This document shows, one piece after another, positions 15,148 through 28,800 of a DNA stretch of 64,000 nucleotides (position 1 is its first letter; each line of letters begins with the position of its first letter). This DNA comes from Chloroflexota bacterium (GTDB lineage: Bacteria; Chloroflexota; Limnocylindria; P2-11E). The position numbers were made by a program, and so were the translations under genes. The stretch covers positions 1 through 64,000 of the forward strand of contig JACQAT010000007.1 in NCBI GenBank assembly GCA_016194865.1. Direction: 5' to 3'. The notes beneath the pieces are model-generated. The model was given only the letters and a program-made list of their open reading frames with translations. It made no database searches and was not told the DNA's origin.

Positions 15148-15182
15148 TCGCGCGGCCCTCTAGCGGTCAGGAAGGAAGAACG

Positions 15183-16244
15183 ATGTCCATCGTCGAACTG
15201 GAATACCCCAAGATCGAGCGCGTCGAAGGCGACGAGCGGTACGGCAAGTTCGTCTGCGAGCCGCTGTCCGCCGGATACGGCACCACGCTCGGTAACTCAC
15301 TGCGTCGCGTGCTCCTCAGCTCGCTCCAGGGCGCGGCCATCACGGCCGCCCGCGTGCGCGGCGTCGCACACGAGTTCTCGACCATCCCCGGGGTCAAGGA
15401 GGACGTCGTCGAGATGGTCCTCAACCTCAAGCAGGTACGGCTGCGCTCGTTCTCCGCGGAGCCGCTCACGCTGACCCTCGAGAAGGAGGGCCCCGGCACG
15501 GTCACGGCCGCCGACATCCAGACGACGAGCGACGTCGAGATCGTCAGCCCCGAGACGCACATCGCGACGCTCGAGCCGGAGGCGTCCCTCTGGATGGAGC
15601 TCACGGTCGAGAACGGCCGCGGCTTCACGTCCGGCGACCGCAAGGAAGGTTTGCCGATCGGTGTCATCCCGATTGACGCGCTGTTCAGCCCGGTCCGCAA
15701 GGTGAACTTCCACGTCGAGAACACCCGCGTCGGTCAGGTGACCAACTACGACCGCCTGATCCTCGAGGTCTGGACCGATGGCACGCTCGCCCCGGACGAG
15801 GCGATCGCGCAGGGCTCTGCCATCCTCGTGCAGCAGTTCTCCCTGTTCGGTGGCCTCACGCGCTCGCAGACGGCGCTCGTGCCGCCCGCCCGCGCGAACG
15901 GCGGCGCCGCGCTGCCCTCGGGCGTCGCGGATCTGCCGATCGAGGACCTCGACCTGCCGCAGCGCGCGTTCAACTCGCTCAAGCGTCACGGCATCACGAA
16001 GATCGGCCAGCTCCTGCAGACCCCCGACGAGGAGCTGCTCCGCATGCGCAACTTTGGCAAGAAGTCCCTCGACGAGATCAAGGAGCGCCTCGCGGCGCGC
16101 GGCCTCATCGAGGCGCCGGAGCCGAGCACGCTCAGCGCCGACGACGTCGAGCTCGATACCGAAGAGGACGATGTCGACGAGGGCAACCTTCCCGGTGACG
16201 AGGACGAGCAGGTCATCACGGGCAAGGGCAAGGTCGAGGAATAA
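15183..16244 (+). CDS. rpoA: DNA-directed RNA polymerase subunit alpha
   Basis: GYGTTLGNSLRRVLLSSLQGAAITA; alpha-CTD; acidic C-terminal tail. Confidence 0.98.
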   Translation: MSIVELEYPKIERVEGDERYGKFVCEPLSAGYGTTLGNSLRRVLLSSLQGAAITAARVRGVAHEFSTIPGVKEDVVEMVLNLKQVRLRSFSAEPLTLTLEKEGPGTVTAADIQTTSDVEIVSPETHIATLEPEASLWMELTVENGRGFTSGDRKEGLPIGVIPIDALFSPVRKVNFHVENTRVGQVTNYDRLILEVWTDGTLAPDEAIAQGSAILVQQFSLFGGLTRSQTALVPPARANGGAALPSGVADLPIEDLDLPQRAFNSLKRHGITKIGQLLQTPDEELLRMRNFGKKSLDEIKERLAARGLIEAPEPSTLSADDVELDTEEDDVDEGNLPGDEDEQVITGKGKVEE

Positions 16245-21403: not shown

Positions 21404-22728
21404 GCGCCCTCTTCGGCACCGACGGCGTCCGCGGCATCGCGAACCTCGAGCTCACGCCCGAGCTGGCGCTGCGGCTCGGCCGCGCGGCAGGGCAGGTGCT
21501 CGGCGGCGCGGGGCATCGCGTGGTCATCGGCCGCGACACGCGGCGCTCCGGCCGCATGCTCGAGAGCGCGCTCGCCGCTGGGCTCTGCTCCGTCGGGATG
21601 GAGGCGCGGCTCGTGGGTCACGTGCCCACGCCCGGTCTCGCGTACCTCGCGCGTACGGGCGATTTCATCGCCGGCGCGGTGATCAGCGCGTCCCACAACC
21701 CTGCGCCCGATAACGGTATCAAGTTCTTCGACGCGAACGGGCTCAAGCTGCCTGATGCCCTCGAGGCGGAGATCGAGCGCTCCATGGCGGGGGACGACGA
21801 CCTTCCGCGTCCGACCGAGGGCGGCATCGGCCTCATCGGCGATGCGCGCGGCCTGGTGAAGGAGTACGAGGATTTCCTGCTGAAGCTCGCGCCTCCTCTG
21901 GCGGGCGTGAAGGTCGTGCTCGACTGCGCGAACGGCTCGACGTATCGCACCGCGCCGGCGGTATTCGCGCACGCGGGCGCGAACGTCTACACGCTGTTCG
22001 ATACGCCCGACGGCGCGAACATCAACCAGGGCTCGGGCAGCACGAGCCCCCAGGCTCTGCAGCGCGCGGTCGTCGAGCGTGGCGCGGACATCGGGTTCGC
22101 GTTCGACGGCGACGGCGACCGCGTGATGGTCGTGGACAGCACCGGCGCCATCCACGACGGCGACACCGTGCTCGCGCTGGCCGCGCGGCACTTCGGGCGC
22201 GCCGGCCGCCTCAGGCCGCGTCTTGTCGTGGGGACGGTCATGTCCAACGGCGGGGTCGAGGCGACGCTCGCGCGCGAGGACATCGCGCTCGTGCGGACGC
22301 AGGTCGGCGACCGCTACGTGTGGGAGGAGCTCGTCCGTCGCGACGCGCAGTTCGGCGGCGAGCCGAGCGGGCACGTCATCTTCCGTGGGTACAGCACGAC
22401 CGGCGACGGGATCCTCACCGCGCTCGAGGTCCTGCACCTCGTGCGCGCGGAGGGGCTGCCGCTCACGCGCCTGGCCGCGGACATCGAGCACTGGCCGCAG
22501 ATCACGCGCAACGTGCGCGCGGCGAAGCGCAAGGACTGGGAGGCGAGCGGCCCGTTCAGCGGCGCCGTGCGGGCCGCCCTCGGCGCGCTCGGCACGACCG
22601 GGCGGCTCGTCGTGCGTCCGTCGGGCACCGAGCCCGTGCTGCGCATCACGGTCGAGGCGCGGGAGCAGGCCCTCGCGGAGCGCGTCGCCTCGCAGCTCGC
22701 GGACGCGGCCACGGAGCACCTCTCCTAA
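21400..22728 (+). CDS. glmM: Phosphoglucosamine mutase
   Basis: LFGTDGVRGIANLELTPELALRLGRA; SASHNPAPDNGIKFF; VRPSGTEPVLRITVE. Confidence 0.98.
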   Translation: MSALFGTDGVRGIANLELTPELALRLGRAAGQVLGGAGHRVVIGRDTRRSGRMLESALAAGLCSVGMEARLVGHVPTPGLAYLARTGDFIAGAVISASHNPAPDNGIKFFDANGLKLPDALEAEIERSMAGDDDLPRPTEGGIGLIGDARGLVKEYEDFLLKLAPPLAGVKVVLDCANGSTYRTAPAVFAHAGANVYTLFDTPDGANINQGSGSTSPQALQRAVVERGADIGFAFDGDGDRVMVVDSTGAIHDGDTVLALAARHFGRAGRLRPRLVVGTVMSNGGVEATLAREDIALVRTQVGDRYVWEELVRRDAQFGGEPSGHVIFRGYSTTGDGILTALEVLHLVRAEGLPLTRLAADIEHWPQITRNVRAAKRKDWEASGPFSGAVRAALGALGTTGRLVVRPSGTEPVLRITVEAREQALAERVASQLADAATEHLS

Positions 22729-24572
22729 TGTGCGGCATCGTCGGCTACGCCGGTCCGCAGCAGGCGCTGCCGCTGCTCATGGATGGACTGAAGCGCCTCG
22801 AGTACCGCGGGTACGACTCCGCGGGCGTCGCGATCCAGCACGACGGGGTGCTCGAGATCCGGCGCGCCGAGGGCAAGCTCGCCAATCTCGCCGCGGTCGT
22901 CGCGAAGTCGCCGGCCGCCGGGGCCACCGGGATCGGCCACACGCGCTGGGCGACGCACGGACGGCCGAACGAGCAGAACGCGCACCCGCACGTCGACTGC
23001 GGCGGCGTCACCGCCGTGATCCACAACGGGATCATCGAGAACTTCGAGGCGTTGAAGAAGCCGCTCGTGGACAAGGGCCACCGCTTCATGTCGGAGACCG
23101 ACACCGAGGTCGTCGTCCACCTGATCGAGGACGAGCTGAAGAGCGGGAAGTCACTCGAGGACGCCGCGCTCGCGGTCGTGCCGACGCTCGAGGGCGCGGC
23201 CGCGCTGGCCTTCGTGTCGGCGAAGGACCCGGGGAAGATCGTGGCGGCACGCATCAGCAACGCCGGTGGCGTGATCGTCGGCCATGGGGAGGGGGAGAAC
23301 TACCTCGCCTCGGACATCCCGGCGCTTCTGGAACACACCCGCACCGTGAGCTACGTGGAGCCCGGCGAGTTCGCCGTCATCACCGCGGGCGGCGTCCGCT
23401 TCCTCGATCGCGCGGGCACGCAGCTCGAGAAGGCGAAGACGACCATCACCTGGGACACCGTCTCGGCCGCGAAGTCCGGGTACAAGCACTTCATGCTGAA
23501 GGAGATCCACGAGCAGCCGCGGGTGATCTCCGACACGCTGCTCGGCAGGGTCGATCGAGCCTCGGGGCGTGTCGTGTTCGACGCCGACCTGAAGCTCACG
23601 GACGACGCGGTCCGCGCGCTGGATCGCATCACGCTGCTCGGCTGCGGGACGGCGGGCTACGCGGCGCTGGTGGGGAAGTACCTCATCGAGCGTCTCGCGC
23701 GCATCCCCTGCGACGTCGAGATCCCCAGCGAGTACCGCTACCGCGACCCCGTGGTCACGAAGGGGCAGCTCGTCATCTCGCTCACGCAGTCGGGCGAGAC
23801 GGTCGACACCCTCGCGGCCATGGAAGAGGGCAAGAAGCGCGGCGCGCGGCTGCTCACGTTCGTGAACGTCATGGGCAGCCAGGCCTCGCGGATGGCGGAC
23901 GACGTCATCTACCTGCACGCGGGCCCGGAGATCAGCGTGGCGTCGACGAAGGCGTACTCGACGATGCTCGTCGACCTGTACCTCTTCGCGATCTTCCTCG
24001 GCCAGCGTCGTGGGACGCTCGATCCCACGGCAGGCGGGAAGCTCCTCGCGGAGGTGTTCCACCTGCCGACCCTCGTCGACGCGGTGCTGCGCGAGGAGCC
24101 GAAGATCAAGGCGCTCGCGTACCGGCACCACCAGGCGAAGGACTTCCTCTATCTCGGCCGCGGGGTGAACTACCCGACCGCGCTCGAGGGCGCGCACAAG
24201 CTGAAGGAGCTCTCCTACAGCCACGCCGAGGGTACGGCCGCGGGCGAGATGAAGCACGGGATCAACGCGCTCATCGACGAATCGCTTCCCGTCGTGGCCA
24301 TCGTGCTGCAGGACTCGACGTACAAGAAGATGCTGTCGAACATCCAGGAGGTCCGTGCCCGCGCCGGCGCGGTGATCGCCGTCGCCAACGACGACGACGA
24401 GGAGATCGCGCAGAACGCGAGCGAAGTGATCCGCGTCCCGAAGACGAACGAGCTGCTCTCGCCGGCGCTCGCGGTCGTGCCGCTTCACCTGTTCGCGTAC
24501 CACGTCGCTGACCGCCGCGGCAACGACGTCGATCAGCCGCGCAACCTCGCCAAGGCGGTCACCGTTGAATAA
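22728..24572 (+). CDS. glmS: Glutamine--fructose-6-phosphate aminotransferase
   Basis: MCGIVGYAG; TRWATHG; SIS domains; TAATG overlap with glmM. Confidence 0.98.
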   Translation: MCGIVGYAGPQQALPLLMDGLKRLEYRGYDSAGVAIQHDGVLEIRRAEGKLANLAAVVAKSPAAGATGIGHTRWATHGRPNEQNAHPHVDCGGVTAVIHNGIIENFEALKKPLVDKGHRFMSETDTEVVVHLIEDELKSGKSLEDAALAVVPTLEGAAALAFVSAKDPGKIVAARISNAGGVIVGHGEGENYLASDIPALLEHTRTVSYVEPGEFAVITAGGVRFLDRAGTQLEKAKTTITWDTVSAAKSGYKHFMLKEIHEQPRVISDTLLGRVDRASGRVVFDADLKLTDDAVRALDRITLLGCGTAGYAALVGKYLIERLARIPCDVEIPSEYRYRDPVVTKGQLVISLTQSGETVDTLAAMEEGKKRGARLLTFVNVMGSQASRMADDVIYLHAGPEISVASTKAYSTMLVDLYLFAIFLGQRRGTLDPTAGGKLLAEVFHLPTLVDAVLREEPKIKALAYRHHQAKDFLYLGRGVNYPTALEGAHKLKELSYSHAEGTAAGEMKHGINALIDESLPVVAIVLQDSTYKKMLSNIQEVRARAGAVIAVANDDDEEIAQNASEVIRVPKTNELLSPALAVVPLHLFAYHVADRRGNDVDQPRNLAKAVTVE

Positions 24573-25068
24573 GGACGCACGTCCCGACGGCGGAGCCCGA
24601 GGTGTGGAGGGCAGGCCCGACACACCGAGGGCGAGCACGGCGGCCGAACGAGGGCTCCGCCCGAGCGAGGTCGGACAAGGTGGGCTGAGCCCGAGCGAGG
24701 TCGGCATAGACATCATCGAGACGGCACGGATAGGCGCGGTCCTCACAAGGCACGACGAGCGGTTCCTGGGCCGCGTCTACACCGAGTGGGAGCGGCGCTA
24801 CTGCCGCAGGAACGTGCTGCACCTCTCGGGTCGCTGGGCCGCCAAAGAAGCGGTGTCGAAGGTGCTCGGCCTCGGCGTCCGCGGCGTGGGCTGGCGCGAG
24901 ATCGAGATCAAGCGGACCCCGGCGGGGCAGCCGATCGTCGTGCTGCACGGGCGCGCGGAGGCGCGCCGCACGGCGCTCGGCCTCAGCGCGCCGCTGTCGG
25001 TGAGCATCTCCCACATCCGCGACCTCGCGGTCGCGGTCGCGGTGGGGCTTCGCGCGGAGCGCGCCTGA
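24565..25068 (+). CDS. acpS: Holo-ACP synthase with atypical low-complexity N-terminal extension
   Basis: VGIDIIETARIG...GRWAAKEAVSKVLGLGVRGVGWREIEI; start uncertain (TTG 24565). Confidence 0.85.
   Translation: MNKDARPDGGARGVEGRPDTPRASTAAERGLRPSEVGQGGLSPSEVGIDIIETARIGAVLTRHDERFLGRVYTEWERRYCRRNVLHLSGRWAAKEAVSKVLGLGVRGVGWREIEIKRTPAGQPIVVLHGRAEARRTALGLSAPLSVSISHIRDLAVAVAVGLRAERA
24652..24704 (+). repeat. Two 23-bp hairpin repeats (30-bp period) inside acpS 5' end
   Basis: gggctccgcccgagcgaggtcgg (24652-24674) and gggctgagcccgagcgaggtcgg (24682-24704). Confidence 0.9.
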
Positions 25069-25958
25069 GCGTCAGCCGCCCGATCGCGCTCGATGCGCGC
25101 GCGGTCCAGGCGATGCTCCGCCCTCTGCCGGCGGATGCCGGCAAGGAGAAGCGTGGCCGCGTCGTGGTCGTGGGCGGCTCGCTGCAATATCCCGGTGCGC
25201 TGCTGCTCGCGTCGCGCGCCGCGCTGCGCTGCGGCGCGGGCGTCGTGACGGTCGCCTCGGCCCGCGCCGTGATCGAGGTCATCGCGGGACGCGATCCGAA
25301 CGTGACGTTCTTGGCCCTCGCGGAGTCCCAGCCCGGCACGGTGGCCGTGGGCGCGGCGGCGCAGCTGTCGTCGCTGCTGCGGGAGAAGGTCCGCGCGATG
25401 CTGCTCGGCCCCGGGCTGGCGCACGCGACCGGCACCGATGACTTCGTCGCGGCGGTCCTGCGCAACGCGCGTGGCGTCGCGACCGCCATCGACGCCGACG
25501 GCCTCAACGCCCTGGCGCGGACGACGGGCTGGACGGACCTGCTGCCGGCGAAGTGCGTCCTCACCCCGCACGACGGCGAGGCCGCTCGGCTCGCCGGCGC
25601 CGTGGTCCCGGCGGGCGACGACCGCATCGCCTTCGCGGAGGAGCATGCCGCGGAGTGGGGCGCCGTCGTCGCGCTGAAGGGCGCGGTCACGGTCGTCAGC
25701 GACGGCCGCAAGACGTACGTGCACGATGCGCCGAACCCCGCGCTGGGCGTGGGTGGCTCGGGCGACGCGCTCGGCGGCGCCGTCGCCGCCTTCCTCGCGC
25801 GCGGGCTCGCGCCACTCGCGGCCGCCTGCGTCGCGGTGTGGGTCCACGGCCGCGCGGGCGCGCTCCTCGCCGCCGAGATCGGCGAGAACGGCGTCCTCGC
25901 CAGCGAGATCGTCGACGCGCTGCCGCGCGGTCTGCGCGAGATCGCGGAGCCACGCTGA
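25065..25958 (+). CDS. nnrD: ADP-dependent NAD(P)H-hydrate dehydratase (CTG start inferred)
   Basis: GRVVVVGGSLQYPGALLLASRAALRCGAGVVTV; ALGVGGSGDALGG; no ATG/GTG/TTG near the conserved N-terminus. Confidence 0.88.
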   Translation: MSVSRPIALDARAVQAMLRPLPADAGKEKRGRVVVVGGSLQYPGALLLASRAALRCGAGVVTVASARAVIEVIAGRDPNVTFLALAESQPGTVAVGAAAQLSSLLREKVRAMLLGPGLAHATGTDDFVAAVLRNARGVATAIDADGLNALARTTGWTDLLPAKCVLTPHDGEAARLAGAVVPAGDDRIAFAEEHAAEWGAVVALKGAVTVVSDGRKTYVHDAPNPALGVGGSGDALGGAVAAFLARGLAPLAAACVAVWVHGRAGALLAAEIGENGVLASEIVDALPRGLREIAEPR

Positions 25959-26875
25959 TGCGCAGCACCGTCGCGGATATCGAGCTCGACGCGGTCTCGG
26001 ACAACGTCCGCTCGCTGGCGCTCGCCTCACGCGCATCGGTGATCGCCGTCGTGAAGGCGGACGGCTACGGCCACGGCGCCGAGGCGGTCGGCCGCGCGGC
26101 GCTCGACGCCGGCGCGGTCATGCTCGCGGTGTTCACCGTCGAGGAGGGGATCGTGCTCCGGCGCGCCGAGCCCGAGGCGAGCATCCTCGTGCTGGGCGGA
26201 GCCACGGACGACGCCGACCTGACGGCGGCCCTGACCGCGCGCCTCTCGCTCGTCGAGTGGGACGAGCGGCGCGCCGGGCGGATCGCTAGCGCCGCGCGGG
26301 CCCAGCGGACCACGGCGACGCTCCACTTCAAGGTCGACACCGGGCTCACTCGCCTCGGCGCGCGCCTGGAGGACGCGGCGCGCGCCGGCCTTCAGGCCGC
26401 CGCGCATCTGGCCGACAGGGTGCCGCTGCGGCCCGCCCTGACCTGGCGCAGCGTGGTGCGGCGCGTCGCCGACGTGCCGGTCGGGGCCGGCGTCTCGTAC
26501 GGGCACGTGTTCCGCGCGTCGCGCGAGTCGCGCATCGCGACGGTGCCGGTGGGGTACGGCGACGGTCTGCTGCGCAGCGGGTCGGGGCGTCTCTGGGTCC
26601 TCGTCGGCGGCCAGCCGGCGCCGGTCGCCGGACGCATCGCGATGGACCTCGTCATGCTCGACGTCACCGGCCGGGAGACGAAGGAGGGCGACGAGGTCGT
26701 GATCATCGGCGAGCAGCGCGGCGCCCGGCAGACGGCGGAGGACGTCGCCGAGGCGTGCGGCACGGTCTCCTACGAGATCGTCGGAGCCATCCGGCCGCGT
26801 GTGCCCAAGCGCTACCTGCGCGACGGCCGCCTCGTCGCGACGAAGACGCTCGCCGAGGGTTTCCGCTGGTGTTGA
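25958..26875 (+). CDS. alr: Alanine racemase, apparently with in-frame internal deletion
   Basis: VVKADGYGHG PLP-lysine motif, VDTGLTRLG, VSYGH; central ~70-80 residues missing. Confidence 0.85.
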   Translation: MRSTVADIELDAVSDNVRSLALASRASVIAVVKADGYGHGAEAVGRAALDAGAVMLAVFTVEEGIVLRRAEPEASILVLGGATDDADLTAALTARLSLVEWDERRAGRIASAARAQRTTATLHFKVDTGLTRLGARLEDAARAGLQAAAHLADRVPLRPALTWRSVVRRVADVPVGAGVSYGHVFRASRESRIATVPVGYGDGLLRSGSGRLWVLVGGQPAPVAGRIAMDLVMLDVTGRETKEGDEVVIIGEQRGARQTAEDVAEACGTVSYEIVGAIRPRVPKRYLRDGRLVATKTLAEGFRWC

Positions 26876-28800
26876 GGACGCTCGCGCGCGCCGCGGTGCT
26901 GATCGTCTTTCTCGGCGCGTGCGTGCCCGACGGACCACAGAGCGCGACCGCGACGCCGGTCGCGAGCGCCGCCCTGGTCAGTCCGACGCCCGCACCGACG
27001 CGCCACGCCGACGACATGACGGCCGCGCTGCTGCGCAATCCGCTCCCGAACGCGGATCTCTTCGACCTCACTCGGCGCCTGCGCGGCCGCGACGGCACGC
27101 CGGCAACGCTGTTCGAGCCGAGCCGGACGACGCCGCCGGACGAGCGCGTCGGCTCGATCCGCGACTTCTGGATCTACGACTTCGATGGCAAGACGAACCG
27201 CAAGGTCAGCGCGACGCTCAAGGTGATGACCGAGCACGCCAAATGGTGGGTCGCGAGCGACGTCACGACCGATCCGGCGCTGCTGCAGACGACCGCCGAC
27301 CAGTTCGAGAAGATCTACCCGGTCGATCGGCGCATCTACGGCTCCGAATGGACGCCCGGCATCGACGGCGATCCGCGCGTCGCGATCATCCTCGCCCGCA
27401 TCCCGGGCCGGGCCGCGGGCTACTTCAGCTCCGCCGACGAGCTGCCACTGTGGGTGAACGAGTTCTCCGCCGAGAAGGAGATGATCTACATCAACTCGCT
27501 GACCGGCCGCCTCGCGACGCCGGGGCTCTACTCGGTGCTGGCGCACGAGCTCTGCCACATGATCCAGTTCAACCGGCGCGTGCGCTCGGTCGTGTGGTTC
27601 AACGAGGGGCATTCACAGCTCTGCGAGCGCGCGAACGGCTTCACCCAGGGGTTCGAGCAGGTCTTCCTGCGCCAGCCCGACACGCAGCTCAACGACTGGC
27701 CGGAGCTCGACGAGCAATCGGCCCTCCACTACGGCGTGGCCTTCCTGTTCCTCGAGTTCCTCCGGCAGCACGCCGGCGGCGAGGACCTCATCAACGCGTT
27801 CCTCTCGAAGGGGATCGACACGCCGGCGGACCTCGACACGGTGCTCCGCGCGCGTGGCCAGCCTGGCCTCGAGCAGCTCTTCGGCGACTTCGTGGCCGCG
27901 AACGCGCTCATCGGCCACGGCGCGGAGGATCGCTACGCGTACATTGGGAGCGTGAAGCCGACGACCGCGGCCGGGCCCACGACACAGGATCGGCTCGCGG
28001 CCGGCGCGACGCTGCGTGGCTCGGTGCATCAATACGCCGCGCGTTATGTGGAGCTGCCGCGCTCGGCGTTCCACCTTGCCTTCGACGGCGCGCGCGGCAC
28101 CCGCGTCATCCCGACGGACGCGCATTCCGGCAGGGCGTTCTGGTGGTCCGATCGCGCGGATGGACTTGACAGCACGCTCACGCGCGACGTCGACCTGCGC
28201 ACCGCGCGGTCGGCGACGTTGACGTTCTGGACCTGGTTCGAGCTCGAGAAGGATTTCGACTACGGCTACGTCGCGGTCTCGGATGACGGCGGCTCGCACT
28301 GGAAGACGCTCGCGACGCCCGCGACCACCCGCACCGACCCCAACGGGAACAATCTCGGCGACGGCTACACGAACCTCTCGGGCGGCGCGACCGCGAGCTG
28401 GATCCAGCAGAAGGTCGACCTCAGCGCGTATGCGGGAAAGCAGGTCAGGCTGCGCTTCGAGGTGGTGACGGACGGCGCGCTGAACCTCAACGGCATGGCG
28501 ATCGACGACCTCGAGATCCCCGAGGTCGGGTACCGCGACGACGCCGAGCAGGATGGGGACTGGCAGGCGAACGGCTTCATCCGATCCACCAACGTGGTGC
28601 GCCAGCGCTACATCGTGCAGGTGCTGCGCTTCACGAGCGGCAGGCCGACCGTCGAGCGCGTGATCGTCGAGGACGGCGCGCTCGAGCTCGACATCGATGC
28701 CTCAGGCGACCGGCTCGCGCCGGTCCTCGCGGTGACCGGGCTCGCGCCGCGCACGAGCGAGGTCGCGTCGTTCTCCGTGACGTTGAGCGCGAAACGATGA
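26869..28800 (+). CDS. Secreted lipoprotein metallopeptidase-like protein with C-terminal immune-inhibitor-A/MAM-like domain
   Basis: Lipobox LGAC; HELCH...WFNEGHSQLCE zinc motif; jelly-roll-like FWTWFELEKDFDYGYVAVSDDGGSHWKTL. Confidence 0.7.
   Translation: MLRTLARAAVLIVFLGACVPDGPQSATATPVASAALVSPTPAPTRHADDMTAALLRNPLPNADLFDLTRRLRGRDGTPATLFEPSRTTPPDERVGSIRDFWIYDFDGKTNRKVSATLKVMTEHAKWWVASDVTTDPALLQTTADQFEKIYPVDRRIYGSEWTPGIDGDPRVAIILARIPGRAAGYFSSADELPLWVNEFSAEKEMIYINSLTGRLATPGLYSVLAHELCHMIQFNRRVRSVVWFNEGHSQLCERANGFTQGFEQVFLRQPDTQLNDWPELDEQSALHYGVAFLFLEFLRQHAGGEDLINAFLSKGIDTPADLDTVLRARGQPGLEQLFGDFVAANALIGHGAEDRYAYIGSVKPTTAAGPTTQDRLAAGATLRGSVHQYAARYVELPRSAFHLAFDGARGTRVIPTDAHSGRAFWWSDRADGLDSTLTRDVDLRTARSATLTFWTWFELEKDFDYGYVAVSDDGGSHWKTLATPATTRTDPNGNNLGDGYTNLSGGATASWIQQKVDLSAYAGKQVRLRFEVVTDGALNLNGMAIDDLEIPEVGYRDDAEQDGDWQANGFIRSTNVVRQRYIVQVLRFTSGRPTVERVIVEDGALELDIDASGDRLAPVLAVTGLAPRTSEVASFSVTLSAKR

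Follow-up and report, generated by a model that had tools for sequence, protein, structure and literature searches.

The alr Locus and Its Neighborhood

The window, which is the whole 64,000-nt stretch of Chloroflexota DNA analyzed here, carries an alanine racemase gene (alr) with an internal deletion. The gene order around it, cdaA-ybbR-glmM-glmS-acpS-nnrD-alr, is intact, and the ATG of alr overlaps the nnrD stop codon (TGATG) (Table 1). In a family member from Lake Baikal, the MAG "Chloroflexi bacterium Baikal-deep-G120" (L033), the order glmM, glmS, nnrD, alr, galU is kept. Other window genes were checked against family profiles and displayed no obvious internal gap. Just 3' of alr, positions 26872–28800 encode a metalloprotease-like protein with a weak HExxH family match and an InhA-like MAM domain; this gene also lies beside alr in relatives.

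Table 1. Features of the alr region (window coordinates).
Feature	Position	Strand	Description	Basis
glmS	22728..24572	+	Full-length intact neighbor	NCBIfam TIGR01135, 1–607 of 607
nnrD-type NAD(P)H-hydrate dehydratase	25063..25958	+	Intact neighbor	NCBIfam TIGR00196
alr	25958..26875	+	Internally deleted alanine racemase gene; 305 aa and stop codon	Translation and Pfam
Retained N-terminal barrel part	25958..26386	+	PLP lysine K33 (VVKADGYGHG), K125, R132	Alignments
Hairpin	26356..26387	+	Perfect inverted repeat, 11-bp arms, 10-nt loop, ending exactly at the junction	Repeat search
Deletion junction	26384..26389	+	78 codons (234 bp) absent	Alignments and split match
Retained C-terminal domain	26387..26872	+	Catalytic Tyr181 (GVSYG), Met229-Asp230	Pfam and alignment

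Extent of the Deletion and Its Junction

The alr product is 61% identical to that of the nearest relative. Its Ala_racemase_N domain (PF01168) spans only profile positions 1–143 of 220, leaving the N-terminal barrel incomplete, and its Ala_racemase_C domain (PF00842) is complete (1–127 of 127, E 9.4e-41). Comparison with 16 full-length alr genes from the same family and order as the window organism places an in-frame gap of 78 codons at about 26386/26387, after codon 143 and before codon 144. The gap amounts to 78 residues relative to 15 of these homologs and 77 relative to the remaining one. An earlier note, made from the sequence of this locus, had claimed an in-frame internal deletion of ~70–80 residues, which the 16 relatives confirm; the residues it gave across the junction also agree with the translation of 25958–26872, which reads ...VDTGLTRLGARLEDAARAGLQAAAHLADRVPLRPALTWRSVV... 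With the intact alr of genome G001 as query, residues 1–140 match 25958–26380 and residues 220–378 match 26384–26863, with no window DNA between the two. Solved alanine racemases likewise match the window protein in two pieces, with about 85–90 residues of their chains between them. The missing segment is present in every full-length alr of the family genomes searched, which rules out the gap as a shared family trait. A displaced copy was not found in the assembly, where the segment as query matched the alr locus itself only, and weakly (E 0.02).

Codon 143, the last before the junction, encodes Ala in the window and Tyr in all 16 relatives, and codon 144 encodes Gly. The Ala in place of Tyr assigns codon 143 to the left flank, so that the right flank begins with codon 144 (26387), to within one or two bases. 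A hairpin at the junction had also been noted previously. The GGCC-TTCA-GGCC element named for it is a trivial 4-bp palindrome, too weak a hairpin to be relevant; the structure found here is instead the longer stem listed in Table 1, whose arms consist entirely of G+C. It is one of eight such hairpins in the window, and 0.7% of randomly chosen positions have a stem of at least 11 bp nearby. The only direct repeats at the junction are short chance matches, and a long repeat that a k-mer assembler could collapse is absent. Reads bearing the deletion must therefore exist, which counts against an origin at the assembly level.

Predicted Loss of Activity

The lost piece corresponds to the second half of the barrel and includes much of the PLP site. 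In solved alanine racemases, Ser204 and Ile222 contact the PLP phosphate and Arg219 the pyridine ring, with His166/168 as the partner of Arg219 (PMC3245724, PMC4517790). According to the alignments, the equivalents of Ser204, Arg219, Ile222 and the His166/168 region all lie inside the missing stretch. The absence of the phosphate-binding site is thus upheld, although the family serine sits in the motif "HAAASAG" and not in the Asn-Ser named in the earlier note. Similarly, the segment described there as RPGIALYG, "RPGLALYGL" in this family, is gone through its Tyr, while the final "GL" is retained. Owing to the loss of the second barrel half and much of the PLP site, the 305-aa product should be inactive, as had been predicted before.

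It is extremely improbable that the gene encodes a shortened functional racemase or a neofunctionalized protein built on a barrel of half the usual size. In favor of such a protein, no stop codon interrupts the frame, most of those active-site residues that fall outside the deletion survive, and the AlphaFold2 model of the short form is confident (pLDDT 84.7) and matches alanine racemases with a TM-score of about 0.78 by query length. However, this overall likeness is expected, since the underlying alignment consists of intact homologs, with which AlphaFold2 can model broken proteins confidently. The model lacks the barrel strands found at 151–159, 191–195, and 211–214 of the intact control, and it superposes only loosely on solved structures (rmsd 4.3–8.4 over gapped alignments). 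Furthermore, the PLP-site residues named above are all lost, and the short form is shared by no relative.

Traces of decay were sought in the remainder of the gene. Here, 70 of the 72 family-invariant residues are kept (70 of 71 away from the junction); the two that differ include the residue at the junction. First-, second- and third-position GC content barely differs between the two halves of alr, and the branch of the window gene (0.57) is not exceptional compared to its sister (0.42) and another member (0.72). A decaying pseudogene is therefore unsupported: either alr has not had time to degenerate or the organism carries it intact.

D-Alanine Supply in the Assembly

The assembly comprises 1.38 Mb in 22 contigs and, at 66% complete, leaves out one third of the genome. 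The earlier prediction of inactivity had been made subject to the lack of another alr; a search of this 66%-complete assembly found no second copy. A weak PF01168 match on contig 9 was rejected as a candidate, as its sequence identifies it as a diaminopimelate decarboxylase. Near-complete relatives contain exactly one alr each, so the gene is not redundant in the family. D-Alanine is presumably still needed, given that the assembly encodes an intact D-Ala-D-Ala ligase (Ddl) and several Mur ligases. A second weak Ddl piece lies outside the reading frame of the ligase, and the idea of a broken ligase was rejected.

These observations bear on a genuine, recent and fixed deletion, by which the organism would be left without the one alanine racemase known from it, obtaining D-alanine from neighbors or from another enzyme (an alr encoded in the third of the genome that the assembly lacks, or a side activity of GlyA). 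We regard this as unlikely, if still worth serious consideration. In its favor, the sequence does contain a clean deletion, and alr lesions in three family genomes (see below) could mean repeated loss. Searches of the 66%-complete assembly turned up neither a second alr nor a class IV aminotransferase. A full-length GlyA is encoded there, an enzyme that one report (PMC3935232) proposes as a source of D-alanine in Chlamydia pneumoniae. Conversely, GlyA is near-universal and its presence thus unspecific, one third of the genome is absent from the assembly, the rest of alr is undecayed, and glmS of sister draft genomes bears similar lesions. Two further bypasses were considered and set aside: a D-amino-acid aminotransferase, for which no class IV enzyme was found in this incomplete genome, and a side activity of cystathionine lyase, for which only weak, partial matches were obtained.

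Comparable Gaps in Sister Draft Genomes

The alr neighborhoods of related draft genomes were scanned for clean gaps backed by several reference genomes. The scan is blind near gene ends, so that its lesion counts are lower bounds, and the lesions of G013 and G023 were added by manual checks outside the scan. In alr of G043 (L175, G043:C234, near 13685; also L146), an in-frame gap of 90 bp takes out the PLP lysine motif KADAYGHG. In G023 (L011 near 920; L171, G023:C103), the gap of about 94 bp covers the stop codon of nnrD as well as the start codon of alr. Three lesions affect glmS: 104 bp are gone in G013 (L132 near 230, G013:C278) and 43 bp in G042 (L174 near 3445, G042:C343), both with loss of frame, and 93 bp in G043 (L175 near 11013). 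The frame is preserved in the window alr deletion and in both G043 deletions. By contrast with these gaps, glmM shows no such deletion and is full length in 41 of 41 genomes. No sequence signature common to the lesion junctions was found. In particular, a comparable hairpin is absent from the other six junctions examined, which rules out a common hairpin signature, as the window alr junction is the only one to carry it.

Compared to six reference genomes, ybbR of G024 (L172 near 15149–15224, G024:C64) lacks 87 bp in frame, perhaps as natural variation. The match to galU on the same contig falls into two pieces that overlap, suggestive of a frameshift.

Without a supply of amino sugar, cells need the enzyme encoded by glmS. 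Draft sequences with a gapped glmS are for this reason implausible as fixed genotypes.

Origin of the Deletion

The window deletion is probably an assembly-level or minority allele, and the gene as assembled is most likely not the working gene of the organism. What favors this reading is the recurrence of similar clean deletions in alr and the essential glmS of other draft genomes of the family. A deleted template may have been taken as the consensus during genome assembly, whether it came from a minority deletion allele or arose when a polymerase jumped, or a chimera formed, across the GC-rich hairpin; preservation of the reading frame would then be a matter of luck (1 in 3). A template jump would fit the 11-bp hairpin that abuts the junction, and we infer a technical cause or a minority allele. 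The simplest common reading of all lesions is that these draft assemblies carry occasional clean deletions that stem from chimeric templates or minority alleles. Several observations speak against an assembly-level origin: the sparing of glmM in the 41 genomes means that the lesions are unevenly spread, the other six junctions lack a comparable hairpin, the frame is kept in three of the deletions, and the other window genes that were checked are free of obvious gaps. A search of the literature for this kind of assembly fault, or for natural internal deletions in alr, yielded nothing useful.

The uneven spread also touches on a polymorphic population, in which deletion and intact alleles would coexist under selection, for instance through frequency-dependent sharing of D-alanine. 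It accords with the finding of independent deletions, in alr and in glmS, in several genomes of a single family and with the fact that D-alanine and glucosamine are scavengeable wall precursors, whereas the product of the consistently intact glmM is not. However, the numbers are small (three alr, three glmS), the ends and sizes of the deletions vary with no shared signature, and no recombination site was seen; such a balance appears improbable. Very improbable, likewise, is the broader proposition that the family repeatedly loses enzymes for scavengeable wall precursors (alr, glmS) by clean deletion, leaving populations dependent on neighbors with the wall pathway otherwise kept.

Taken as an assembly-level or minority allele, the deletion carries a caution, as clean internal deletions of essential genes in draft metagenome-type assemblies can mimic biological gene loss, and auxotrophy called from them would be wrong. 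If real, the losses would point to a shared supply of D-alanine and amino sugars in a little-studied bacterial family. With regard to the earlier note, its deletion and predicted inactivity stand, and the explanation preferred here is the assembly-level defect that it had itself named as the scenario refuting its interpretation.

Comparison With Known Systems

Like the alr and glmS gaps of the sister genomes, the window lesion is one precise gap in a conserved single-copy wall gene. It differs from them in being longer (234 bp compared to 43–104 bp) and in abutting an 11-bp hairpin. Compared to Alr (EC 5.1.1.1; PF01168 plus PF00842), a fold type III PLP enzyme, the window protein lacks 78 barrel residues, including those binding the PLP phosphate and the pyridine nitrogen. 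Both have in common the N-terminal lysine motif, the carbamylated-lysine position, an Arg136 equivalent, and the C-terminal domain with the catalytic Tyr and the Met-Asp pair. As in its relatives, alr in the window is a single-copy gene adjoining nnrD.
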